From contig NZ_MDWE01000011.1 in NCBI RefSeq assembly GCF_001715195.1, positions 62,001 to 126,000 of the forward strand: DNA of 64,000 nucleotides. The letters are read 5' to 3'. A program made the position numbers and the translations under genes. The notes beneath the pieces are model-generated. The model was not told where the DNA came from, did no database searches, and saw only the letters and a list, made by a program, of their open reading frames with translations. Positions within the stretch are counted from its first letter, which is position 1, and each line of letters starts with the position of its first letter. This DNA is from Rhodohalobacter halophilus (lineage in GTDB: Bacteria > Bacteroidota > Rhodothermia > Balneolales > Balneolaceae). Of the stretch, positions 7,646-32,663 are shown in pieces.

Positions 7646-9142
7646 ATGGAACAGTACATTTTAGCATTGGATCAGGGAACAACAAGCTCCCGGGCCATCG
7701 TCTTTAACAAAAAAGGCGAAATTGTATCAACAGCGCAAAAAGAGTTTCGGCAGATCTATCCGCAGCCGGGCTGGGTTGAGCACGATGCGCAGGAAATTTG
7801 GTCAACACAGGCAGGTACCGCAGCCGAGGCAGTCGCTTCTGCAGGCATTAATGGAAAAGCGCTTTCAGGTATTGGGATCACCAATCAGCGGGAAACCACG
7901 GTTGTTTGGGACCGAGAATCCGGCCAGCCAATCTACAATGCCATTGTCTGGCAGGATCGAAGGACATCAGATTACTGTGATAAGCTGAAAGCTGACGGCC
8001 ATGCAGAGATGATACAGGATAAAACCGGATTGGTTGTGGACTCCTATTTTTCCGGAACAAAAGTGAAATGGATTCTGGATAATGTGGATGGAGCGCGAAA
8101 AAAGGCTGAAGATGGAAAACTGGCTTTCGGAACCATCGATTCATGGCTCATCTGGAATTTTACGCAGGGGGAACTGCACATTACAGATGTGACGAATGCG
8201 TCGAGAACGATGCTCTTCAACATCAATACCATGGCCTGGGATCATGAAATTCTGGAGCTGATGGACATCCCTAAAAGTATGCTTCCGCAGGTGAAGCAGT
8301 CGAGTGAGGTTTATGGAAATACAAAAACCACACTCTTTGCAAGCAAGGTGCCAATAGCGGGAATTGCCGGTGATCAACAGGCGGCGCTGTTCGGGCAGAT
8401 GTGTACAGAAAAAGGGATGGTGAAGAATACATACGGTACCGGATGTTTTATGTTGATGAACATCGGTGATAAGCCAATCAAATCAGAAAATAATCTGCTT
8501 ACCACGGTGGCATGGAAAGTGGATGGAAAAACTCAGTATGCGTTTGAAGGCTCTGTATTTATTGCGGGTGCAGTGGTTCAGTGGCTTCGCGATGAGATGA
8601 GCATCATTCAGGAGTCGAAAGATATCGAGTATTTTGCCAATAAAGTGGAAGACTCTGACGGTGTGTATCTGGTCCCTGCATTTGCAGGGTTAGGCGCACC
8701 TCATTGGAATCAGCATGCGCGGGGAACGATGGTTGGAATTACAAGAGGAACGAACAGAGCCCATATTGCCCGTGCAGCACAGGATTCCATCGCCTACCAG
8801 GTTATGGATCTGCTTAACGCAATGAATGCGGATTCAGGAATTCAGATCAAAGAGCTTCGAGTGGATGGCGGCGCAACGGTCAACAATACGCTGATGCAGT
8901 TCCAGAGTGACCTTCTTGAAGTGCCGGTGGTTCGTCCGAAAGTTACAGAGACAACCGCACTTGGTGCTGCCTATCTGGCCGGGCTTGCCGTCGGTTACTG
9001 GGACGATATCGAAGAGATTCGCCAACAGTGGATGGTAGACGAAGAGTTTACGCCTAAGATGGAGAAAGAAAAAGTGAATAAGCTGACCAATGGATGGCAG
9101 AGAGCCGTACGAGCTGCAATTGCATGGGCAGACGACAAGTAA
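7646..9142 (+). CDS. glpK: Glycerol kinase
   Basis: This 498-residue FGGY-family kinase phosphorylates glycerol to glycerol 3-phosphate, the likely inducer of the operon. It starts with the phosphate loop [15 protein letters not shown] and has the conserved [26 protein letters not shown] and [13 protein letters not shown] blocks. The loop before GIAGDQQ reads [12 protein letters not shown]. It lacks the His that HPr phosphorylates in Firmicutes enzymes and the Arg-containing FBP loop of the E. coli enzyme, so I expect neither control. It lies between glpD and glpF, with 69 bp to the latter. Confidence 0.98.
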
Positions 9143-9211
9143 GTAATAACTTCAGTTTTATCATTTAAACTTTTTGTTTTCAATAATTACAACAAAATGG
9201 AGTAATGGATT

Positions 9212-9976
9212 ATGAGTCCGTATATCGCTGAAATAATTGGTACTGCAATTCTGATGCTGCTTGGTAATGGAGTTGTGGCAAACGTATTGCTTAAAGATAG
9301 TAAAGGAAACGGGGGCGGCTGGATTACCATCACCTGGGGGTGGGGCATTGCCGTATTTACGGCTGTGTATGTTGTGGGGCAGTATAGCGGTGCTCACATC
9401 AACCCGGCCGTAACGTTAGGCCTGGCCTTTGGGGGACTGTTTGAATGGGCACATGTACCTTTCTACATCGGTGCTCAGCTGATCGGGGCTGCAATTGGAG
9501 CCTTGCTGGTATGGCTTACCTACAAAGACCACTACGCAAAAGAGGAGGATGCCGACCTGATCCTTGCAACACACTGTACAGCACCGGCCATCCGGAAATA
9601 TCCAAGCAACGTAATGACCGAAGCGATCGGTACGCTGATGCTGGTGTTTGGAGTTTTTTACCTGACCTCACCCGGATTTATTGATCTGAATGGAGAACTT
9701 CTTGAGGTGATTGTTATTGACGGTGTTGAAGTAGGGTTTGGACTCGGTTCACTTTCAGCCCTTCCTGTGGGATTGCTGGTACTAGGAATAGGGTTATCTC
9801 TTGGCGGCCCCACCGGTTACGCAATTAACCCCGCCCGGGATCTTGGGCCAAGAATTATGCACGCCCTTTTGCCAATACCCGGAAAGCGCGACAGCGACTG
9901 GGCATATTCCTGGGTTCCCATAGTTGGTCCCATTATTGGTGCGGCGATAGCAGCCGGACTCTTTGTGATCCTATAA
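9212..9976 (+). CDS. glpF: Glycerol uptake facilitator (aquaglyceroporin)
   Basis: This 254-residue MIP-family channel lets glycerol cross the inner membrane passively; trapping comes from GlpK. Both pore half-helices are present: AHINPAVTLG near residue 65 and YAINPARDLGPR near residue 205. The Asp after the second NPAR is the usual glycerol-facilitator residue and sets it apart from water-specific AqpZ. A GGAG lies 9 bases before the ATG. It follows glpK and precedes an outer-membrane porin gene in the same direction. Confidence 0.96.
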   Translation: MSPYIAEIIGTAILMLLGNGVVANVLLKDSKGNGGGWITITWGWGIAVFTAVYVVGQYSGAHINPAVTLGLAFGGLFEWAHVPFYIGAQLIGAAIGALLVWLTYKDHYAKEEDADLILATHCTAPAIRKYPSNVMTEAIGTLMLVFGVFYLTSPGFIDLNGELLEVIVIDGVEVGFGLGSLSALPVGLLVLGIGLSLGGPTGYAINPARDLGPRIMHALLPIPGKRDSDWAYSWVPIVGPIIGAAIAAGLFVIL

Positions 9977-9982
9977 TAAATT

Positions 9983-10019
9983 GTGTGGACGAACAGGCCT
10001 GCCCGCCTGTCATCCACAC
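9983..10019 (+). other. Intercistronic hairpin between glpF and the porin gene
   Basis: A two-part stem is visible: GTGTGGA (9983-9989) pairs with TCCACAC (10013-10019), and ACAGGC (9993-9998) with GCCTGT (10005-10010). It has no U tract. It could be a leaky terminator or a processing or stability element that sets porin expression apart from glpDKF. Confidence 0.6.
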
Positions 10020-10106
10020 CTCAACTCCCATACATCCAATCAATCATCCTGCGGCCGCCATTTGACGGAAAGCCACAGGCTAACAAGAATTAACAGGAGT
10101 TTTCTC

Positions 10107-11273
10107 ATGGAACTTAAGAAACTTTACGTCACTGCTCTACTTTTGATGGGTACCTTTCTTTTAAACATTTCAAATGCTGCCACAATACAGGCCCAGGGCA
10201 TTCAATACGAAAATGATTCAGGGTGGGGGCTGGATGTCACAGGTCAACTGCCTGTATTTATCAACCTGTCAAAACATGATTCCTTCAGTTCTGACGGCGG
10301 AGATCAATTTTCGAGCCGGATCATGTCCGGTTTTAACCCTGCAAATATCACATTTTCAGTATCTGCACCTGCAAAGGGGGGGATTTCGGTGAGAGGTATT
10401 TTTCAGATTAATCATCACCTTCAGGGAGCCGGTATACAAAATGATGGTCTGTTTGAGGGCAGAATCGCTGATATTGAGATCTCAGGAGAGTTCGGCACCG
10501 TAAACATGGGTAAAGGATTTGGCATTTTTGGAAGCAGCGCAATTGCTGATGCCGGCAGCGCAATGGGTGTTGGACGGTTTGGAGGACCTGATGCAGCAGA
10601 TGCAACGCTCGGTCGGATCGGTTCAGGTTATACGTACGCCAACTTCAACCCGAGGATCACATACACCACTCCGAGCCTTGGCGGATTGACGCTGAAAGCA
10701 GGGTTCATCAACCCGGAAAAACCGGATGGACCTTCTGATGATATTGAAACCACAATGCCTCGGTTTGAGGGGCAGGCAAACTATTTCATTGATTTAACGG
10801 CCGGCACAATGGATATCTGGGTTGGCGGTATGGCTCAATCTGTTGATGTAGTCAGTCAGGATTTTGAGTACACGATCTCCGGATGGGATGCCGGTACAAG
10901 AATCAATATCGGTGGCTTGCAGTTAACCGGGGCTTATTCTCAGACATCCGGCGTAGGTGCTGATGGATTAATAGGGCTGAACCTGAGTGGTTCTGGGCTG
11001 GATCAGGCGGAAGTGAAGGCTACACAGTGGTATACCGAAGCGGTATATACACTCGGTGATATTATCATCGGCGGCAGCTATGGAGAAGGATCACAGGATG
11101 CCAACTCAACGGTTATTGGAAGCTCTCCGGATATTACAAATCAGTTGCTTATGGTATTTACTCGATATAAAGTAACGGATCAGCTAACCTTGATTGGTGA
11201 AGTTCAGAATTTTGAATCAGATGCACAGTCAAATTACCGGGCTCTGATTGCGGGGATGCAATTCAACTTTTGA
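10107..11273 (+). CDS. Outer-membrane porin-like beta-barrel, last gene of the glycerol operon
   Basis: The 388-residue product begins with a signal peptide (MELKKLYVTALLLMGTFLLNISNA, cut near AQA/GIQ). It continues as alternating polar/apolar strands rich in Gly and aromatic residues and ends in Phe (AGMQFNF), as beta-barrels do. The fold resembles Gram-negative general porins. The ATG at 10107 has AGGAG 7 bases upstream; a longer frame from 9981 would bury the signal peptide and is rejected. Position suggests it supplies glycerol, or a glycerol phospho-compound, across the outer membrane. Function is inferred from context only. A strong terminator follows. Confidence 0.85.
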   Translation: MELKKLYVTALLLMGTFLLNISNAATIQAQGIQYENDSGWGLDVTGQLPVFINLSKHDSFSSDGGDQFSSRIMSGFNPANITFSVSAPAKGGISVRGIFQINHHLQGAGIQNDGLFEGRIADIEISGEFGTVNMGKGFGIFGSSAIADAGSAMGVGRFGGPDAADATLGRIGSGYTYANFNPRITYTTPSLGGLTLKAGFINPEKPDGPSDDIETTMPRFEGQANYFIDLTAGTMDIWVGGMAQSVDVVSQDFEYTISGWDAGTRINIGGLQLTGAYSQTSGVGADGLIGLNLSGSGLDQAEVKATQWYTEAVYTLGDIIIGGSYGEGSQDANSTVIGSSPDITNQLLMVFTRYKVTDQLTLIGEVQNFESDAQSNYRALIAGMQFNF

Positions 11274-17925: not shown

Positions 17926-18918
17926 ATGATTACATTCAACAAAATTCTGGTGCCGACAGACTTCTCAAAAGGAGCAGAGGGAGCATACGCCGTAGCCCAA
18001 AAGATTGCGAAAAAATTTGGCGGGAAAATTGATTTCATTCATATCGTACCAACACTCAAGTATGTAAATGAAAGCATCAAGCGTCTGGGTGTTCCGCTCG
18101 ATATGAACAAGGATGTCTATCCGCGTGTGATTGAAGAGGCTGAGCAAAAAATTGATAAAGCGATGTCGAGCTACATTGTTGAACAAAATCGCGGGGATCA
18201 TTTTGTGAAAGTCGACCGCCGTCCTTCTGAAGCCATTGTAGAGCACGCCTCAAAAAACGGATATGATCTAATTCTGATTGGTGCAAAAGGTGCCCATGAA
18301 ACCAAAATGCTGCGCGGAAGCGTGACAGAACGCGTCATTCGCCGGTCGAAGGTGCCAGTATTTTCGGTAGGAGATCGTTTTAATGCCGATGACGTGAAAA
18401 ATATTATGGTTACTACCGATACCTCTGAACTGTCGCTTGCTTCATTTCCAATGGCAGCGGCACTTGCCGATTCGTTTGGGGCTAGTCTCACACTATTTCA
18501 TGTGATTGAACTCTACGGTAGTATATCTGAAGATATTCCAAGGTCTCCGGCCAAAGGAGAAGCGATTTCAATTTATGAAGCAATTATTGAACGGTTAAAT
18601 AACTACCTCACCAAGCGAAAAATCGAGAATATTCATGTGCAGAGAACGGGCGTGACGTTTGAGGATGAAGTCGTGATAACCGATGGCGACCAAAGCAGAA
18701 CCATACCGCTCTTTACAAAAATTGAGAAAGGAGTATCAGCACATTATGAAATTGAAAACTACGCTTCCGATTCAGCTGATTTGGTCATGATGGCTACACA
18801 CGGGCATAGTGGATTTGCCCACCTGATCCTCGGTTCAACGGCGGAAAAAGTGGCTCAATATGTATCCAAACCGGTGATAACAGTTCGGCCGGAAGAGAAA
18901 GATTTTGAAGAGGCGTAA
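17926..18918 (+). CDS. Tandem universal stress protein (two UspA domains)
   Basis: This 330-residue cytoplasmic protein has two UspA folds. The first begins ILVPTDFSKGAEGAYAVAQ and ends with the ATP-loop form LIGAKGAHETKMLRGSVTERVIRRSKVPVFSV. The second begins NIMVTTDTSELSLASFPMA and ends with MATHGHSGFAHLILGSTAEKVAQYVSKPVITV. Both have G-2x-G-9x-G(S/T)-like loops, suggesting nucleotide binding. Such proteins are induced in growth arrest or low oxygen in several bacteria. The gene has its own 148-bp upstream gap and is followed 52 bp later by a short-chain dehydrogenase, possibly the same transcript. Confidence 0.93.
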   Translation: MITFNKILVPTDFSKGAEGAYAVAQKIAKKFGGKIDFIHIVPTLKYVNESIKRLGVPLDMNKDVYPRVIEEAEQKIDKAMSSYIVEQNRGDHFVKVDRRPSEAIVEHASKNGYDLILIGAKGAHETKMLRGSVTERVIRRSKVPVFSVGDRFNADDVKNIMVTTDTSELSLASFPMAAALADSFGASLTLFHVIELYGSISEDIPRSPAKGEAISIYEAIIERLNNYLTKRKIENIHVQRTGVTFEDEVVITDGDQSRTIPLFTKIEKGVSAHYEIENYASDSADLVMMATHGHSGFAHLILGSTAEKVAQYVSKPVITVRPEEKDFEEA

Positions 18919-25636: not shown

Positions 25637-26692
25637 ATGGAAAAGCGCTGGGTTCTTTATGGCAGTTATGGATATACGGGAAACCTGATTGCAGAGATCG
25701 CTTCAAAACGGGGGGCGAATGTAACGCTTTCCGGCAGGAATGAAGATAAACTTCGCGATCAGGCTGAGCGGTTGGGGCTGGATTATGAAGCTTCTGATTT
25801 AGCTGATACGGAATCAATGGATCATCTGTTGGGACGCCATGATGCAGTTCTTCATTGCGCAGGTCCATTTATTCATACATGGCAACCGATGGCCGAAGCC
25901 TGCCTGAGGAACAGATGTCACTATTTGGATATAACGGGTGAAATTCCCGTTTTTGAGTCACTCAAAAAATTAGACCCCCATTTTCAGAAAAAGAATTTGA
26001 TGGCGATGCCCGGTGTTGGGTTTGATGTGGTTCCGTCCGATTGTTTGGCCAGCTTACTTTATAAGAAACTCCCGGACGCGACACACCTTGAGCTTGCTAT
26101 TTCCGGATTGGGTGGCGGCTTATCGTGTGGAACAGCAAAAACCATGATCGAAAATTTGGGAAGTGGCGGTGCGGTACGAATTGGGGGTGAAATTGAGCAG
26201 GTACCTGCAGCGTATCTGGTTCGGAAAATCCGGTTTGGAGATCAGTGGCGGACAGCTGTTTCCATTCCCTGGGGTGATATTTCAACAGCTTACACCTCAA
26301 CCGGGATCGGGAACATTGTTGTTTATGCCGCCGTGCCTAAAAAAATGATCCAAAGAATGAAGTGGATGAACAGACTGGGGCCCGTCGTTAAGAATAACCG
26401 GGTAAAATCTTTCTTAAATTCACAGGTGGAAAAAGGAAAACCCGGCCCGACTAAAAAAGAGAGAGAAAAAGGCGAATCGTTGGTGTGGGGCACGGTATCC
26501 AATTCAAAAGGGGACTCAGTCGTTGCACTTTTAAAAACGATGGAAGGGTATAGGCTCACCGCCGAGACATCAAGCGAAATTGTTCATCGTGTCTTGAGCG
26601 GGAACTTCCGAAAGGGCTATCAAACACCTTCTCTTGTTTACGGAGGGGAGTTTATCCTGGAGTTTGAGAAATCGGAATTAAATTATTTGTGA
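25637..26692 (+). CDS. Saccharopine dehydrogenase-like NAD(P)-binding protein
   Basis: This 351-residue protein begins WVLYGSYGYTGNLIAEIAS, a Rossmann motif typical of the saccharopine-dehydrogenase-like oxidoreductases (trans-acting enoyl reductase group). It continues with LSGRNEDKLRDQAERLG, AVLHCAGPF and CHYLDITGE. Its role is not the lysine pathway, as no such genes are near. I choose the ATG at 25637 because the fold starts there; an in-frame ATG at 25577 adds 20 odd residues. The end overlaps the convergent small gene by 10 bp. Confidence 0.85.
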   Translation: MEKRWVLYGSYGYTGNLIAEIASKRGANVTLSGRNEDKLRDQAERLGLDYEASDLADTESMDHLLGRHDAVLHCAGPFIHTWQPMAEACLRNRCHYLDITGEIPVFESLKKLDPHFQKKNLMAMPGVGFDVVPSDCLASLLYKKLPDATHLELAISGLGGGLSCGTAKTMIENLGSGGAVRIGGEIEQVPAAYLVRKIRFGDQWRTAVSIPWGDISTAYTSTGIGNIVVYAAVPKKMIQRMKWMNRLGPVVKNNRVKSFLNSQVEKGKPGPTKKEREKGESLVWGTVSNSKGDSVVALLKTMEGYRLTAETSSEIVHRVLSGNFRKGYQTPSLVYGGEFILEFEKSELNYL

Positions 26693-27342
26693 GTGGGATC
26701 AATTCCTACCACCAGCTGAACGTGATTGCTTTTCACAGATCCATTCAACAGTAGTTTACTGTCGGGTAGATCTGAATCTGAAACGATGACAATTTTACCG
26801 GGGTTCTCTTTGTTCAGGGTATTAACAAATTCGTGCCAATATCCTACTCGCAGCCAGGTAAATGGATTTTCGTGGTCTGCACACAGCACAAACCAATTCA
26901 TCGATTTTGAAGGATCTTTTATCTGAAACTTTACTAAATCTGATTCCGAAAGTTGTTTCAAACTGAGTTGATTGGCTATTGCGTAATTTTTGAGCCCATC
27001 TACCATGATCTCTGAGTCCGAATATTGCCCAGCATCAGCGGGTGTTTTTTGTGGGTTGATTTGAGATGAAGGAAATGTTCGTATCGCCGCAATCAGCGAT
27101 GAATCATCAAAGTTTGGAAAAATCTGAATATGATGCTGAACTTTATTTTTGGTCATGTTTTGTCTGAGTGCCTGGAGAACTTTCCCAATACTGATGATCG
27201 CATTTCGGTAGTCGTTTTCATCTTCCCGGTAATCTTTACTGACTGACAGTTCCAGCATATTGTTGGAATAGCTGTATTTCCAGTATTTAACTCCATAGTG
27301 TTTCGGAGCTTTTTTGATTTTTTCGATCCACGTTTTTAGCAT
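26683..27342 (-). CDS. Conserved protein, possibly a distant nitroreductase-like (Acg-type) half
   Basis: I do not firmly recognise this 219-residue protein. The N-terminal part (WIEKIKKAPKHYGVKYWKYS, then DYREDENDYRNAIISIGKVLQALR) recalls the start of Acg/Rv3131-type FMN-free nitroreductase relatives, where a similar NTQPW-like and GAALxNLxLAL arrangement is seen, but that is weak. There is no signal peptide or membrane segment. The start is taken as the ATG at 27342 with GAGAGA upstream; a TTG at 27357 would overlap the YceI stop. It is the last gene of the minus-strand run after the YceI pair. Confidence 0.5.
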   Translation of the reverse strand: MLKTWIEKIKKAPKHYGVKYWKYSYSNNMLELSVSKDYREDENDYRNAIISIGKVLQALRQNMTKNKVQHHIQIFPNFDDSSLIAAIRTFPSSQINPQKTPADAGQYSDSEIMVDGLKNYAIANQLSLKQLSESDLVKFQIKDPSKSMNWFVLCADHENPFTWLRVGYWHEFVNTLNKENPGKIVIVSDSDLPDSKLLLNGSVKSNHVQLVVGIDPTHK

Positions 27343-27353
27343 TTCCGTCTCTC

Positions 27354-27929
27354 TCAAATACGTTTCGCAGTTAGATCGAAGTGAACGGTAAGTTCATCAT
27401 CTGCTTTAATCAGGCCAAAAAGCCCGGTTGGCGGCTCTATGTTAAAATCAGTCATAAATATTTTTTTACTGCCGCGCGCCCTCATTCTTCCGTCTTCAAG
27501 TATTTCACCATCTGCGGTGAAACTGATTTCTCTTGTAACGCCTGCCACCGTAAGCTCTCCAAGAATATTGTAACTGTCATCCGACAGTGATTCAGCGTTG
27601 TTGAATACAAATTTAATGGTAGGATACTGATCTGCTTTAAGCGCATCTTTCATGTCGTTGTTCATCTTTCGCTTACCGCAGTCGAATCCGTTTACGTCTA
27701 TTTCAACCTCCAGGGAAACACTTTGATTGACAGCATCCTGCACGATTGCTTCACCATCATAACTGTGAGCAATACAATCGAACCGATTAACATTTGAACT
27801 CCCTTCAATCCAAAGCCGGCTCACCTCTTCGTCAGCGGTGAACCGGTCTTGGGAAAAAATGTCTCCTTCAGCTACTGTAAAAAGCATAATCCACAGGTTA
27901 ATAAAGATGGAAATCTGAAGAAGTTTCAT
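27354..27929 (-). CDS. YceI family exported protein
   Basis: This 191-residue protein has a signal peptide (MKLLQISIFINLWIMLFTVAEG) and one YceI lipocalin-like barrel. Visible blocks are LWIEGSSNVNRFDCIAHS, DMKDALKADQYPTIKFVF, GELTVAGVTREISF and the closing FMTDFNIEPPTGLFGLIKADDELTVHFDL. YceI proteins bind isoprenoid or other lipophilic ligands in the periplasm. A second YceI gene lies 16 bp upstream in the same direction, and the two share only limited sequence, so the duplication is old. Two internal Cys (FDC, GFDC) are absent from the partner. Confidence 0.92.
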   Translation of the reverse strand: MKLLQISIFINLWIMLFTVAEGDIFSQDRFTADEEVSRLWIEGSSNVNRFDCIAHSYDGEAIVQDAVNQSVSLEVEIDVNGFDCGKRKMNNDMKDALKADQYPTIKFVFNNAESLSDDSYNILGELTVAGVTREISFTADGEILEDGRMRARGSKKIFMTDFNIEPPTGLFGLIKADDELTVHFDLTAKRI

Positions 27930-27945
27930 GTTATGGGTTTAAACC

Positions 27946-28545
27946 TTAGTTGAAATTCACGTTGAAAGTAATCACCATCTCATCTCTTGCTCGAACGGTT
28001 CCAAAAACGGCCGTTGGAGGGTCAATGTCAAAGCTGGTCATCAGTAGATCCTGTTCACCTACAAAGTTGATGGAGCCGTCATCATTCATTTTTGCAGTTA
28101 CGCTCATGGTGATGTTGTGATCCTTGCCTGCAGCATTTACAGTACCGTTTGCAGAAATGAGTGCTGAGCCGTCTTCCTGAACTTCAACACTGGTTACTTC
28201 ACTTAGGGTGAAAGTGATATTTGGATAATCATCTTCCTTCAGGTACTTGTGCATATTCTTGTTTAATCCGCCCGATCCGGAATCTAAGCTCTCTACTGGA
28301 ATAGTCAGGGTCATCTCTTTAAATGTGTCCGGTGTCAGATTTTGGATGGATCGCTCTTCCATCTCAGCAAGAACAAGTGAACCTCTAAGTTCGGTGATAT
28401 CAGCTCCCCAGCTTCGTACGTTTGCTTCTCCATCAAGTCGCATTTCGTAGTTGTCTTGAACATTAAGGGTAACATCCTGGGCAAGCACAGCGCCTGCCAT
28501 AAAAAGCATTAAAATCGAGGTGGTTATTAATTTTTTGAAATACAT
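27946..28545 (-). CDS. YceI family exported protein
   Basis: This 199-residue YceI-fold protein has a signal peptide (MYFKKLITTSILMLFMAGAVLA). The barrel shows LDGEANVRSWGADI, MHKYLKEDDYPNITFTL, GTVNAAGKDHNITM and MTSFDIDPPTAVFGTVRARDEMVITF. It starts after a clear AAGGAG ribosome-binding site. Upstream is an outer-membrane channel gene, with a strong hairpin between, and downstream a second YceI. The set may be one transcript with graded expression. The ligand is unknown; quinone precursors or fatty amides are known for the family. Confidence 0.93.
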   Translation of the reverse strand: MYFKKLITTSILMLFMAGAVLAQDVTLNVQDNYEMRLDGEANVRSWGADITELRGSLVLAEMEERSIQNLTPDTFKEMTLTIPVESLDSGSGGLNKNMHKYLKEDDYPNITFTLSEVTSVEVQEDGSALISANGTVNAAGKDHNITMSVTAKMNDDGSINFVGEQDLLMTSFDIDPPTAVFGTVRARDEMVITFNVNFN

Positions 28546-28609: not shown

Positions 28610-29875
28610 TTAGAAGCTAATTACTGCTTCGAGCATCAATCCGTTGAATTCTGCGTCGTTGAATACACTTCCGGTAGCAAAACCGTCGTATTTCTGACTT
28701 ACATATTCAACTTTGGCAAGGACATTCTTAGTTAGGAACCATCCGCCACCAACGTTGATTCGGCTAATGTCCACATCTTCACCGGCAGATGTATCACCTG
28801 TTACCAGGTTGTAGCGTCCACCGAGATAGAAGTTCTCCTTTTCTCCAAGCCGGTATAGAAGTTCTGCACCATACTGAGTGAAGTTACGTGTGTCAGGCTC
28901 TGCAGCAGCTTTGCCGGATGCAAACTCGAGCACTCCAAAGAACTCCAGCCCCTGGAACTTAACAAACGGGTTGATCATGATAGCCGTCATTTCGTTGCTA
29001 AAGCCCGGGTCAAATCGAGGGATACGAAATTCGCTTGAGCTTTCAGTAAGAATGTTGTAGTAACGTGATCCGGCGCGGTCACCTGCGTAGAGATATGTTC
29101 TTGCAGACTGTCCCGCGTGATATACAGAACCTGTAAGTCTTACACGAAGATCTTCGTTAACCTGAGAGTCATAACCCAGTTTACCTACCAGAGATACTCT
29201 GGTTGCAATTGCGCCCGGTGCAGGTTCTACAGTACTTTGATTCAGTTTACCGTTGGTTAAACCGATCATTGCAAGTAAACCATTGGACTGATAGTAAATT
29301 TCTCCACCAACCTCTGTTGTAAATGCATCCATGATATAGTTTCCAACAAACGGATTGTGGATAGCCTGACCGTTATCGGTTCTTCTAAAGTGAGCATCAC
29401 CATAGTTAATCTCCATGTGACCTACTTTGATTGTAACCTTGTCCATCAGTTCATCAAGAAGTCCATCCTGAATAAAATCAAGTCTGTCCACCTGCATGTA
29501 CCCACCTTTTACATAAGGCTGTCGATGGTGACGTGATGAGAGATAGGTGCGGAGGTGCATTCTCAGGCCGCGCTCAAGCTGTACATCAAGGTCGAGATTT
29601 GAAGTAGCAAGGTTAAAGTTCGGACCGAGCTCAAAAATTCCGCCTGCAGCGTTGTCTTGCTCAATAGCTTGGAATTGTAGGGTGTTTGCTCCGCCAATTC
29701 GAACTTTGACGCCGTCAAATTCTACATCTGTAGTTTTAGGTGATTCAAATACGTTAAGTCCGGTTTGGTCTGGTGCCCGGAAATATTGTAAGTCGCGTGA
29801 GGATTGCGCATTTGCAAAATCTGCCATAAGCAGAGAGGCGATAAGCACAACCATTGTCATCATTGTAGTTTTCAT
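28610..29875 (-). CDS. Outer-membrane porin-like beta-barrel protein
   Basis: The 421-residue product has a signal peptide (MKTTMMTMVVLIASLLMADFANA) and then strand-rich sequence with a central HMEINYGDAHFRRTDNG block. It ends in Phe (LEAVISF), as outer-membrane barrels do. The pattern matches phosphate/short-chain-anion porin-like proteins of Bacteroidota, but the substrate cannot be told. The ATG at 29875 is chosen for the signal peptide; a TTG at 29965 would add 30 non-signal residues. Its upstream region holds two tandem palindromes, and a two-component system lies behind it, which suggests regulation by that system. Confidence 0.83.
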   Translation of the reverse strand: MKTTMMTMVVLIASLLMADFANAQSSRDLQYFRAPDQTGLNVFESPKTTDVEFDGVKVRIGGANTLQFQAIEQDNAAGGIFELGPNFNLATSNLDLDVQLERGLRMHLRTYLSSRHHRQPYVKGGYMQVDRLDFIQDGLLDELMDKVTIKVGHMEINYGDAHFRRTDNGQAIHNPFVGNYIMDAFTTEVGGEIYYQSNGLLAMIGLTNGKLNQSTVEPAPGAIATRVSLVGKLGYDSQVNEDLRVRLTGSVYHAGQSARTYLYAGDRAGSRYYNILTESSSEFRIPRFDPGFSNEMTAIMINPFVKFQGLEFFGVLEFASGKAAAEPDTRNFTQYGAELLYRLGEKENFYLGGRYNLVTGDTSAGEDVDISRINVGGGWFLTKNVLAKVEYVSQKYDGFATGSVFNDAEFNGLMLEAVISF

Positions 29876-30179
29876 AACTGTGTGGTATTTGTTAGAAATT
29901 ATGGATAAAAACTTTTTTGTTGTTTGACTTCGGATAATTGAAGTTGTTTTATTTTGCTCGTTCAATCAAAACGACATGACCAATATCGGCACCGATCGGC
30001 TGCCGTGTTAGCGGTCAGTCGCTGATTGCGCAGTGGGGAATTCCCCGATACCAATAGGAATTTCCCCTATCGCACGCAAAGATCCATGCACATACGATAA
30101 TTGTTTTTTATGAACTTATACATTTATTAAACGTAAAAATACTTACTTATAAAAGTTTTTCCAGAAGACAGACTCTTCA
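29876..30179. other. Non-coding control region with a cluster of palindromes
   Basis: No credible gene is seen in these ~300 bases. The region holds an 8-bp palindrome CCGATCGG inside CGGCA...TGCCG (about 29986-30005), an imperfect TTAGCG/CGCTGA repeat, and the two GGAATTYCCC sites listed separately. The left part is AT-rich and should hold the promoter of the minus-strand channel gene, though I could not pick a clear -7 box. Confidence 0.6.
30035..30070. promoter_or_regulatory. Tandem palindromic operator-like sites
   Basis: GGGGAATTCCCC (30035-30046) is a perfect 12-bp palindrome. A related box, ATAGGAATTTCCCCTAT, lies at 30054-30070. Their centres are 20-21 bp apart, about two helical turns. 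The symmetry and GGGA/TCCC core resemble binding boxes of NarL/FixJ-class regulators such as DosR. Such a regulator is encoded next door at 30501-31157. Confidence 0.5.
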
Positions 30180-30473
30180 ATCTTTTTTTGGATTTGCAGC
30201 CTTTCACTTATTTGCAAAGTTCACGGTTGTGAATCTTCAGCATTTGTTCTTTCGATCGAAGATGAATTGAAACAGTTGAGTGAAGTTGAACTAACTGTGC
30301 GTTTTGAAGGCTCCTCGTCCGGATACAATTCCGGTGAAAATTACTACTCAACAGATGTTAATGAGGGATATTTGCTGTTAAGAGAGAAAGACCAATGTGG
30401 ATGTGACAAATTCACCTATTCAGTTTGGCAAACAACGTGGAGAATTCCATCCGGTACGAAACAAATGGTGTAA
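30180..30473 (+). CDS. Possible small exported protein with non-ATG start, or a gene remnant
   Basis: The frame is open from 30153 to the stop at 30471-30473. A hydrophobic stretch (IFFWICSLSLICKVHGC) is followed by about 80 polar residues with DQCGCDKFTYSVWQTTW, which look like a folded extracellular domain. The hydrophobic part would be a signal or lipoprotein leader, but no ATG, GTG or TTG precedes it. ATC at 30180 is the first possible start, and TTG at 30267 would discard the leader. It could be a decayed gene whose start was lost. I do not recognise a family. It converges with the response regulator gene. Confidence 0.3.
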   Translation: MFFWICSLSLICKVHGCESSAFVLSIEDELKQLSEVELTVRFEGSSSGYNSGENYYSTDVNEGYLLLREKDQCGCDKFTYSVWQTTWRIPSGTKQMV

Positions 30474-30500
30474 CTCTTAACTGTTTGGATAGGCTTTACC

Positions 30501-31157
30501 TTACCCGGAGGCACCTTCAACCCAGCGGACGGCGTGGCGCATCAGTTCGTTTGCAGTGTCAATCTGAAGTTTGTCCTTGATATTTGCCCGGTGGCTTTCA
30601 ACCGTTTTTACGGATATGTGAAGCTTTTCGCCAATCTCTTTTGTGGAGAGCCCTTTTCCGGTCAGTTCAAAAACTTCAAGCTCCCTGTCACTGAGCTGAT
30701 CCAGCGGGTTATCACTTTTCGAACTGTTGCCGGTGGCAAGTTTCATCAGCAATTTATTTCCAATCTTATTACTGAGGTAGATGCCGCCATTTAAAATTTG
30801 CTGAATAGCCTGAATCAGTACATCGACAGCTTCAAGTTTCATCAGATAACCTTTTGCTCCTGCGCGAAGTGCCCTCTCGGCATATAGCTCTTCATCATGG
30901 CGGCTGACAATCAAAATCTTCAGTTCCGGTACTTGGTGCAGCAGGTTTTTAACCAGCTCCAGGCCGTTCATTCCGGGAAGTGAAATATCAATAATGGCAA
31001 CATCAGGTTTGAGGGAAAGAATGTCGTTCATGGCATCCTCAGCCGATTCTGCCTGGCCGGCCAGCTCAAACTCTACCTCTTTTTCCAGTGTCATGGCAAG
31101 GCCTTTGCGCATCAGCGGATGATCATCAACAATATATATTTTCTTCTTTTCTGCCAT
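30501..31157 (-). CDS. NarL/FixJ-family response regulator
   Basis: This 218-residue protein has an N-terminal receiver domain with the acidic pair DD at residues 11-12, phospho-acceptor Asp57 in AIIDISLPGMNG and the conserved Lys near residue 107 (GAKGYLMKLE). A LuxR/NarL helix-turn-helix at the C-terminus reads LSDRELEVFELTGKGLSTKE and on through KTVESHRANIKDKL. The kinase gene lies 84 bp upstream in the same direction. The regulator should bind inverted-repeat DNA as a dimer; the tandem palindromes 430 bp away are the obvious candidate target. Confidence 0.95.
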   Translation of the reverse strand: MAEKKKIYIVDDHPLMRKGLAMTLEKEVEFELAGQAESAEDAMNDILSLKPDVAIIDISLPGMNGLELVKNLLHQVPELKILIVSRHDEELYAERALRAGAKGYLMKLEAVDVLIQAIQQILNGGIYLSNKIGNKLLMKLATGNSSKSDNPLDQLSDRELEVFELTGKGLSTKEIGEKLHISVKTVESHRANIKDKLQIDTANELMRHAVRWVEGASG

Positions 31158-31241
31158 AGGTTTAAAATCTGAAACCAGTTATCTCGGTTAGTAGCGGTGT
31201 GAAAGTTTAATAAAAAAGCGCATCATTCGCACAGGCAGATT

Positions 31242-32663
31242 CTATTTGAATGAGTAGTTGTTTCCAACCGGATAAAGCGTAATAATAATTTTGGCGCCTC
31301 CCAATGCCTCACTCGTGGCAATATCGAGATTAGCCCCGATCAGTCTTGATCGGAAATGCATGATTCGCACTCCCAGACCGCGCTCTTCCTCCCAGTCGTC
31401 AGAAAAACCGGTGCCATTATCTTCAATTTTAATCACAATACGTTCCTTACCCGGTTCAATGGAAATATACACTTCAGAAGCATTTCCGTGTTTAACGGCA
31501 TTGTTGGTTGCTTCCTGTATAATTCTGTAGAGGTGTGTGAGGCTTGTTGAATCTTCAAAATGGAGATTGTCCGGAATATCCAGCCTGCAGGTGATGTTAA
31601 AAAGTTTTTCGGCATTTTTGAGCATGCGTTCCAGTGCGGCTTTCAGTCCTTGTCCTTCAAATTCTACCGGAATCAAACCGCGCGATAGACTTCTTGCATA
31701 TTCATCAGCCTCTTTTACCAGTCGTGTGATGTCGTCTACTTCCTCAGCAAGTTCGTGCCCATCTTCTCTCAGGGAGTTGGCAATATTACGGTTAATCAGG
31801 CTGATACCTGTTAGCATCTGTCCGAGTCCGTCGTGTAAATCCTGCCCGATGCGATGCCGTTCGTGCTCACTGATGCGAAGCACCTCCTGTTCGAGGCGTC
31901 GCTGCTCGGTAATGTCTCGTACGATTCCGGTGTATAAGCGCTGCCCATTTACGTTTACTTCACTCACGGCCAGGTACATAGGAAATGTAGTGCCGTCTTT
32001 TCTCAAACCGGTAACCTCCCGCCCAATACCGATAATTTTTTTGTGTCCGGTTTGATGGTAGTTGTTAATATAGTCATCGTGTTCACGACGGTAGGGTTGA
32101 GGCATTAACAGCTTCACATTTTTGCCGATCACCTCAGATGCTTTGTAGAGAAAGAGATTTTCTGCTGCCTGATTGAATGTTCGAATCTGGGCATGTCTGT
32201 CGATGGTAATAATTGCATCAACGGTGGTCTTGAGAATACTTCGTGCCCGCGCCTCACTCTCTCTGAGTTTCTGTTCAATTAAAAACTGCTCCTCCTTGTT
32301 TCGTGCCATCTTTTCGGCAAAGGCGAGACGAACATCCAGGCGTTGTTCATCGAACAGAGATTCTGTTATGTACTGATCTACTTCTGCGTCCAAAACCCGA
32401 TGAAGATGATCCATCTGATCTTTGCTGATCACGGCTATAATGGTGCGATGTTTGCCGCGTTCACTTGCACGGGCAAGCCGGCAGAGCCGAAGTCCCTGAT
32501 CCGAAATATCACTTAATAGAACGAGGGAAATGTCTTCATTTTCGATCCTGTTGAGAAGTTCATCGTCCGGCTCACCTATTACAACCTGGTGATTCCGGCG
32601 CTCAAGGGCATTTTTTAAAATGTGAATTGAATCGCTGTTAAATCCTGTGACAACTGTTTTCAT
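31242..32663 (-). CDS. FixL-like PAS sensor histidine kinase (HisKA_3/NarX type) with degenerate N-terminal receiver
   Basis: This 473-residue cytoplasmic kinase has three parts. Residues 1-120 look like a receiver fold without a proper acidic pocket. Residues ~135-255 form a PAS domain very close to the FixL oxygen sensor. His195 in RREHDDYI matches the haem-ligating His of FixL, and Arg215 in IIGIGREVTG matches its distal Arg220; LRKDGTTFPM also agrees. The kinase part has phospho-acceptor His277 (IGQDLHDGLGQ), the N box EATNNAVKHG and the ATP loop EDNGTGF. There are no membrane segments. It pairs with the downstream regulator. Oxygen or redox sensing is inferred. Confidence 0.9.
   Translation of the reverse strand: MKTVVTGFNSDSIHILKNALERRNHQVVIGEPDDELLNRIENEDISLVLLSDISDQGLRLCRLARASERGKHRTIIAVISKDQMDHLHRVLDAEVDQYITESLFDEQRLDVRLAFAEKMARNKEEQFLIEQKLRESEARARSILKTTVDAIITIDRHAQIRTFNQAAENLFLYKASEVIGKNVKLLMPQPYRREHDDYINNYHQTGHKKIIGIGREVTGLRKDGTTFPMYLAVSEVNVNGQRLYTGIVRDITEQRRLEQEVLRISEHERHRIGQDLHDGLGQMLTGISLINRNIANSLREDGHELAEEVDDITRLVKEADEYARSLSRGLIPVEFEGQGLKAALERMLKNAEKLFNITCRLDIPDNLHFEDSTSLTHLYRIIQEATNNAVKHGNASEVYISIEPGKERIVIKIEDNGTGFSDDWEEERGLGVRIMHFRSRLIGANLDIATSEALGGAKIIITLYPVGNNYSFK

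Follow-up and report, generated by a model that had tools for sequence, protein, structure and literature searches.

What does the histidine kinase encoded at this locus sense, and which genes does it control? The window, that is, the whole stretch of 64,000 nucleotides from Rhodohalobacter halophilus analysed here, contains an open reading frame that an initial annotation had read as a FixL-like haem-PAS domain joined to a NarX-type kinase core and a degenerate receiver. The open reading frame is present where the annotation placed it. It lies on the minus strand, starts with ATG and encodes 473 amino acids; the plus strand over the same interval is not an open frame. Start and length are common to 23 orthologues of about equal length (57-87% identity), drawn from the own genus and one neighbouring genus, and the genome carries one copy of the gene. 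Three Pfam domains score above cut-off, PAS (residues 140-251), HisKA_3 (268-332) and HATPase_c (376-463). The features of the locus are collected in Table 1.

Table 1. Kinase, partner regulator, palindromes and predicted target genes, with positions in the window.
Feature	Positions	Strand	Basis
Sensor histidine kinase, pseudo-receiver - FixL-type PAS - HisKA_3 - HATPase_c, 473 aa	31242..32663	minus	ORF and profile searches
N-terminal pseudo-receiver, residues 1-120	32304..32663	minus	AlphaFold2, Foldseek, VIA, residue alignment
FixL-type haem PAS, residues 137-253, with H195, N201, K209, I210, R215	31905..32255	minus	51% identity to BjFixL
HisKA_3 dimerisation/phospho-acceptor domain, residues 268-332, H277-D278-x-x-x-Q282	31668..31862	minus	Pfam 4.2e-11
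HATPase_c catalytic domain, residues 376-463	31275..31538	minus	Pfam 1.2e-11
Partner response regulator, 218 aa, REC and LuxR/GerE HTH	30501..31157	minus	Pfam, PDB
Palindrome 1, TAGGGGAAATTCCTA, predicted regulator-binding box of porin operon	30055..30069	minus	shared motif
Palindrome 2, TCGGGGAATTCCCCA, 21 bp downstream of palindrome 1	30034..30048	minus	shared motif
Porin-like outer-membrane beta-barrel, predicted target	28610..29875	minus	sequence character, synteny
YceI-family protein, predicted same operon as porin	27946..28545	minus	Pfam YceI 1.3e-11, synteny
Second YceI-family protein, predicted same operon as porin	27354..27929	minus	Pfam YceI 3.6e-17, synteny
Uncharacterised protein closing the block	26683..27357	minus	synteny in genus and L070

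The sensor domain is indeed close to FixL. PAS residues 137-253 share 51% identity with Bradyrhizobium japonicum FixL, and the best PDB matches are FixL structures (1e-35), far above DosP (1e-15) and LOV (1e-3). The NCBIfam FixL model gives the PAS segment 158 bits as compared to 70.6 bits for the DosP model, and the scores to NifL models are also far below FixL. Thus the profile searches, which the initial annotation had named as one way its reading could fall, did not place the domain outside the haem-binding group. By alignment, H195 corresponds to the haem ligand H200 of FixL and R215 to the O2-binding R220, both as the annotation had claimed; K209 stands at the position of His214, and I210, L231 and V233 occupy those of the distal residues Ile215, Leu236 and Ile238. 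The FixL numbering in this alignment agrees with PMC10765370. H195, N201, K209, I210 and R215 do not vary in 24 orthologues, and H195 and R215 are found together in all 49 homologues of more than 40% identity. Domain identity and conserved residues can be read directly from the sequences; from them we infer that the domain binds haem and that the ligand is probably oxygen.

FixL R206, the propionate-binding arginine conserved in rhizobial FixL, is replaced by N201, an exchange that the initial annotation had already noticed. Since the same 49 homologues mostly carry Asn at this position (N 41, S 4, R 2, Q 1, H 1), Asn201 is a trait of the group and not an oddity of a single protein. Two relatives, L036 and L061, have Arg there and offer a natural comparison for the role of Asn201. 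In B. japonicum FixL, the R206A exchange strongly reduces the inhibition of the kinase by O2, and S. meliloti FixL R200 variants still bind haem, O2 and CO, yet autoxidise during aerobic purification (PMC10765370). Because Arg206 is absent here, and in the light of these variants, the coupling of haem to kinase may differ from that in FixL. If the missing propionate contact made the haem easy to oxidise, the kinase could be a haem redox or NO sensor, reading ferrous versus ferric haem or NO, instead of a reversible O2 sensor. Both the prevalence of Asn and the behaviour of the FixL variants would fit such a function. However, R215, which one would expect in an O2 sensor, is invariant, Lys209 beside the propionate could compensate, and L036 and L061 combine Arg with an otherwise similar pocket, so that we regard a redox or NO sensor as rather unlikely. 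The kinase is more probably a haem-based oxygen sensor, judging from its sequence, with NO, CO or haem redox as possible signals. All claims about the haem pocket leave aside the full-length AlphaFold2 model, whose quality in the PAS and kinase regions is too low (mean pLDDT 66.7; PAS blocks mostly 35-75).

The kinase core is HisKA_3 (PF07730; 43.7 bits, 4e-11) followed by HATPase_c (PF02518; 45.4 bits), both passing the Pfam cut-off, and HisKA gave no Pfam match in the kinase, in line with the initial annotation. The HDGLGQ motif of HisKA_3 is unchanged in 24 orthologues. Being of the HDxxxQ type, it suggests that the kinase may also dephosphorylate its regulator once the signal is off. The N-terminal domain is best called a pseudo-receiver. 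Pfam Response_reg matches residues 12-102 below threshold (19 bits, cut-off 30.2), but the N-terminal 125 residues modelled alone with AlphaFold2 adopt a (beta-alpha)5 receiver fold with a pLDDT of 93.8. This model resembles CheY-like receivers in Foldseek (E 1.5e-5, TM about 0.75) and receivers in VIA (Z about 15-16, rmsd about 2.2 A over about 120 residues). In place of the acidic pair there are G7 and F8/N9, and E101 stands where the conserved Lys would be. The annotation's view of a receiver without its acidic pocket therefore holds, with the addition that D52 is retained: in a profile alignment it matches the phospho-acceptor Asp of Helicobacter pylori CheY, and it is kept in 23 of 24 orthologues. 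The domain is less conserved (mean majority residue 67% in 24 orthologues) than PAS and DHp (86%). The usual Mg2+-dependent phosphorylation is probably beyond it, and its role atop the signalling helix is probably structural, or that of a dimerisation or docking module. On the strength of the sequence, the overall picture of a putative haem-PAS gas sensor with HisKA_3 kinase and degenerate receiver is well supported.

The build had been called unusual in this phylum, which is true for one part only. In a phylum-level sample, the core of PAS and HisKA_3 (E below 1e-60) is found in 57 of 392 genomes and 26 of 178 genera, and a single class accounts for all of them; class-wide it is ordinary, and the build is not a one-off. 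The own genus and near genera typically have the pseudo-receiver form; elsewhere, the N-terminus placed on the core is a GAF domain, GAF plus a receiver-like domain, multiple PAS domains or no recognised domain. A search for the haem-PAS and HisKA_3 pairing across genome contigs gave three weak matches only. Among the plasmid matches that were read, none is a true counterpart of the pairing: the Azospirillum match aligns in the His-Asp column but is HisKA according to Pfam, the rhizobial matches L187 and L188 lack the HisKA_3 His-Asp, and the Pandoraea match L186 lacks the distal Arg.

About ten genomes of the genus, among them G021, G023, G003, G005, G016, G019, G009, G001 and G024, encode kinases of a second, more distant lineage, with about 36-42% identity across PAS and kinase; the own genome has none. 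Universal stress protein genes near the kinase are reminiscent of the mycobacterial DosR regulon. In several families, class-level relatives (L075, L078, L080) carry matches to the window's universal stress protein beside or near the kinase; in the window, the tandem universal stress protein gene lies at 17926-18918 and has no box of the kind described below.

Downstream of the kinase and on the same strand lies its partner regulator, a NarL/LuxR-type protein with REC (8.5e-26) and GerE HTH (1e-16) domains in Pfam. Its closest PDB structure is Mycobacterium tuberculosis DevR (DosR; 2.3e-30), followed by VraR and NarL, with FixJ well behind. Kinase and regulator are neighbours in the syntenic loci of the order, as also in several class-level relatives, and none of the kinase-lacking genomes that were tested yielded the regulator. 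Paralogous regulators of about 55% identity are present in the genus. The regulator is followed by the porin-like gene and two YceI genes, an arrangement shared by three families of the order (kinase-regulator-porin in f1, f3 and f4). Neither Pfam nor NCBIfam matches the porin-like gene, whose name is therefore drawn from sequence character; we place its start at a conserved Met at 29875, instead of the TTG at 29965 used in the list of open reading frames. The product of the last gene of the block has no Pfam match either. A probable glycerol uptake operon, a row of glycerol kinase-like, aquaporin-like and Porin_4 genes, lies elsewhere in the window (7646-11273).

Kinase and regulator appear to control the nearby porin operon via a palindrome, first seen in the gap between regulator and porin of 11 genomes. 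The consensus from 25 porin promoters, TAGGGGAAATCCCTA (15 bp, TAGGG(G/A)AA(A/T)(C/T)CCCTA), has half-site columns of mostly about 1.4-2 bits. A second copy at 21 bp, two helical turns, is the commonest spacing and is found in 11 of the 25 promoters. At a score of at least 11.5 the box is present in 19 of 28 porin upstream regions as compared to 0.24% of dinucleotide shuffles, a count that is partly circular, since the first 11 porin regions had served as seed for the scoring; mtnA, dksA and most later porin sites were left out of the seed. At a score of at least 11.3 it is found in 25 of 27 genomes with the kinase-regulator pair (the exceptions are G048 and G007), in none of seven without the pair and in none of four with only a kinase of 36-48% identity (38 genomes; Fisher 6e-8, uncorrected for relatedness). 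The porins of other genera that have only the distant kinases show no box. Exact strand matches to the box number 20 in 58 genomes, and eight of these adjoin the kinase gene. In the whole own genome, the box with one mismatch is no commoner than a reversed control; the analysis therefore relied on its conserved position in different genomes. Concerning autoregulation, the gap upstream of the kinase holds no box at the threshold used.

Two further genes carry the box within the genus. Upstream of a DksA/TraR-like gene it lies at a near-fixed distance of 63-84 bp in most of 24 genus genomes, scoring at least 11 in 17 of them as compared to 0.9% of shuffles and in none of six genomes outside the genus. 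Copies at this gene are seen, for example, at G000:C4, about 69033-69607 (L084, L193). Upstream of mtnA a score of at least 10.5 is reached in 18 of 22 genus genomes and again in none of six outside. At G000:C37, about 30064-31228 (L087 6065-7232), an exact palindrome stands 103 bp upstream of mtnA (IF-2B family), and G024 and G015 have a site likewise upstream of mtnA, in G024 with a divergent YgaP-like membrane gene on the other side. Another exact palindrome, at G016:C105:157801 (L100), lies beside a flavoprotein resembling sulfide dehydrogenase/quinone oxidoreductases; together with mtnA this makes a link to sulfur possible.

Who reads the box? In G014 (a 91% complete assembly) the dksA box is present, but no kinase or regulator passed the search thresholds; G001 and G009 carry this box too, with the distant kinase alone. 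Another, perhaps paralogous, regulator may therefore read the box, and the regulators of about 55% identity in the genus would be at hand. The box might then belong wholly to such a regulator, and the kinase-regulator pair would merely adjoin the porin operon. This is difficult to reconcile with the porin box tracking the pair (25 of 27 versus 0 of 11), or with its presence in G015, G019 and G021 even though the porin contig there is without the kinase. GGG/CCC palindromes suit the DevR/NreC regulator class, the NreC box being a GC-rich palindrome (PMC8139620), and ownership by a different regulator appears improbable to us. Pairing, synteny, the box and its co-occurrence with the pair are observed directly; from them we predict that the partner regulator binds the box.

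We thus consider it likely that the locus encodes a cytoplasmic haem-based O2-sensing two-component system acting on the porin-YceI-YceI operon via the box. Haem b held by His195 of the PAS domain would take O2, possibly NO or CO, with Arg215 stabilising the ligand. By analogy with FixL, the O2-free form would let HisKA_3 autophosphorylate at His277, and the phosphate would pass from there to the DevR/NarL-type regulator encoded next to the kinase. Once phosphorylated, this regulator would bind the tandem TAGGGG-N4-CCCTA-like palindromes and change the transcription of porin-YceI-YceI and, in the genus, presumably also of the dksA-like gene and mtnA; the sign of the response would again follow FixL. 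That the PAS domain is haem-free in vivo, a structural or other-ligand domain retaining a FixL-like sequence, is very improbable, for although sequence cannot show haem binding, the His ligand, the distal Arg and the distal hydrophobic residues are kept class-wide amid about 50% divergence elsewhere.

How does this predicted haem-based system relate to known ones? It has in common with rhizobial FixL/FixJ a haem-PAS domain of 51% identity, in which haem ligand and distal Arg agree, and a LuxR/GerE-type regulator. FixL differs in having a HisKA core, Arg206 and an own N-terminus, where here HisKA_3, Asn and the pseudo-receiver are found, and the partner regulator resembles DevR/NarL more than FixJ. 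By whole-protein criteria the kinase is not FixL, because of its HisKA_3 core and because the NCBIfam FixL equivalog gives 158.5 bits (cut-off 850) with a match covering the PAS domain only. A role as nitrogen-fixation regulator was rejected, the cbb3 subunit FixO not being found in the genome; the NifH-family search was uninformative, since all 14 controls matched too. We found no paper on FixL-like sensors with a HisKA_3 core in the open-access literature that was searched.

The mycobacterial DosS/DosT-DosR (DevS/DevR) system likewise joins a haem-based sensor to a DevR-type regulator; DosS is a HisKA_3-type kinase, and the DosR box is a GGG/CCC palindrome like the box described here. The ATPase domain of DosS is a weak PDB match to the kinase. 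The comparison with DosS, proposed in the initial annotation, is apt for kinase and regulator; for the sensor it is not, since DosS holds its haem in a GAF domain, GAF-A (PMC4082495), and not in a FixL-type PAS. Pfam finds no GAF in the kinase, which is therefore not DosS. NreB/NreC of staphylococci resembles the system in its cytoplasmic PAS sensor for O2, its NarL-type regulator and its GC-rich palindromic box, and NreB is a HisKA_3-type kinase. It differs in sensing O2 by a [4Fe-4S] cluster instead of haem (PMC8139620) and in its targets, the genes of nitrate/nitrite respiration. NarX/NarL has the HisKA_3 core and the NarL-family regulator in common with the pair. NarX sits in the membrane and senses nitrate on the periplasmic side, whereas the kinase studied here is a cytoplasmic protein with a putative haem-PAS domain. 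The best reading is a system that is FixL-like in sensing and DosS/DosR-like in output.

New here is the pairing of kinase and regulator beside a conserved porin-YceI-YceI operon, together with the palindrome. As a wider and still tentative proposal, which is less likely than not, the class would possess a haem-PAS/HisKA_3/DevR-like family that works without the Arg206 switch and hence by another route from haem to kinase, that governs a low-oxygen (or redox) regulon of porin-YceI, DksA-like factor and mtnA via TAGGGGAAATCCCTA, and in which interchangeable N-termini (pseudo-receiver, GAF, PAS) tune the response. If true, a regulon of the porin-YceI operon, a DksA-like factor and mtnA was previously unknown. 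A FixL-type sensor would be joined to a DosS/DosR-like output with a concrete, testable DNA target. Moreover, Asn in place of Arg206 occurs naturally, being fixed in the genus and common in the class, and lends itself well to testing whether FixL-type signalling needs the Arg206-propionate contact.
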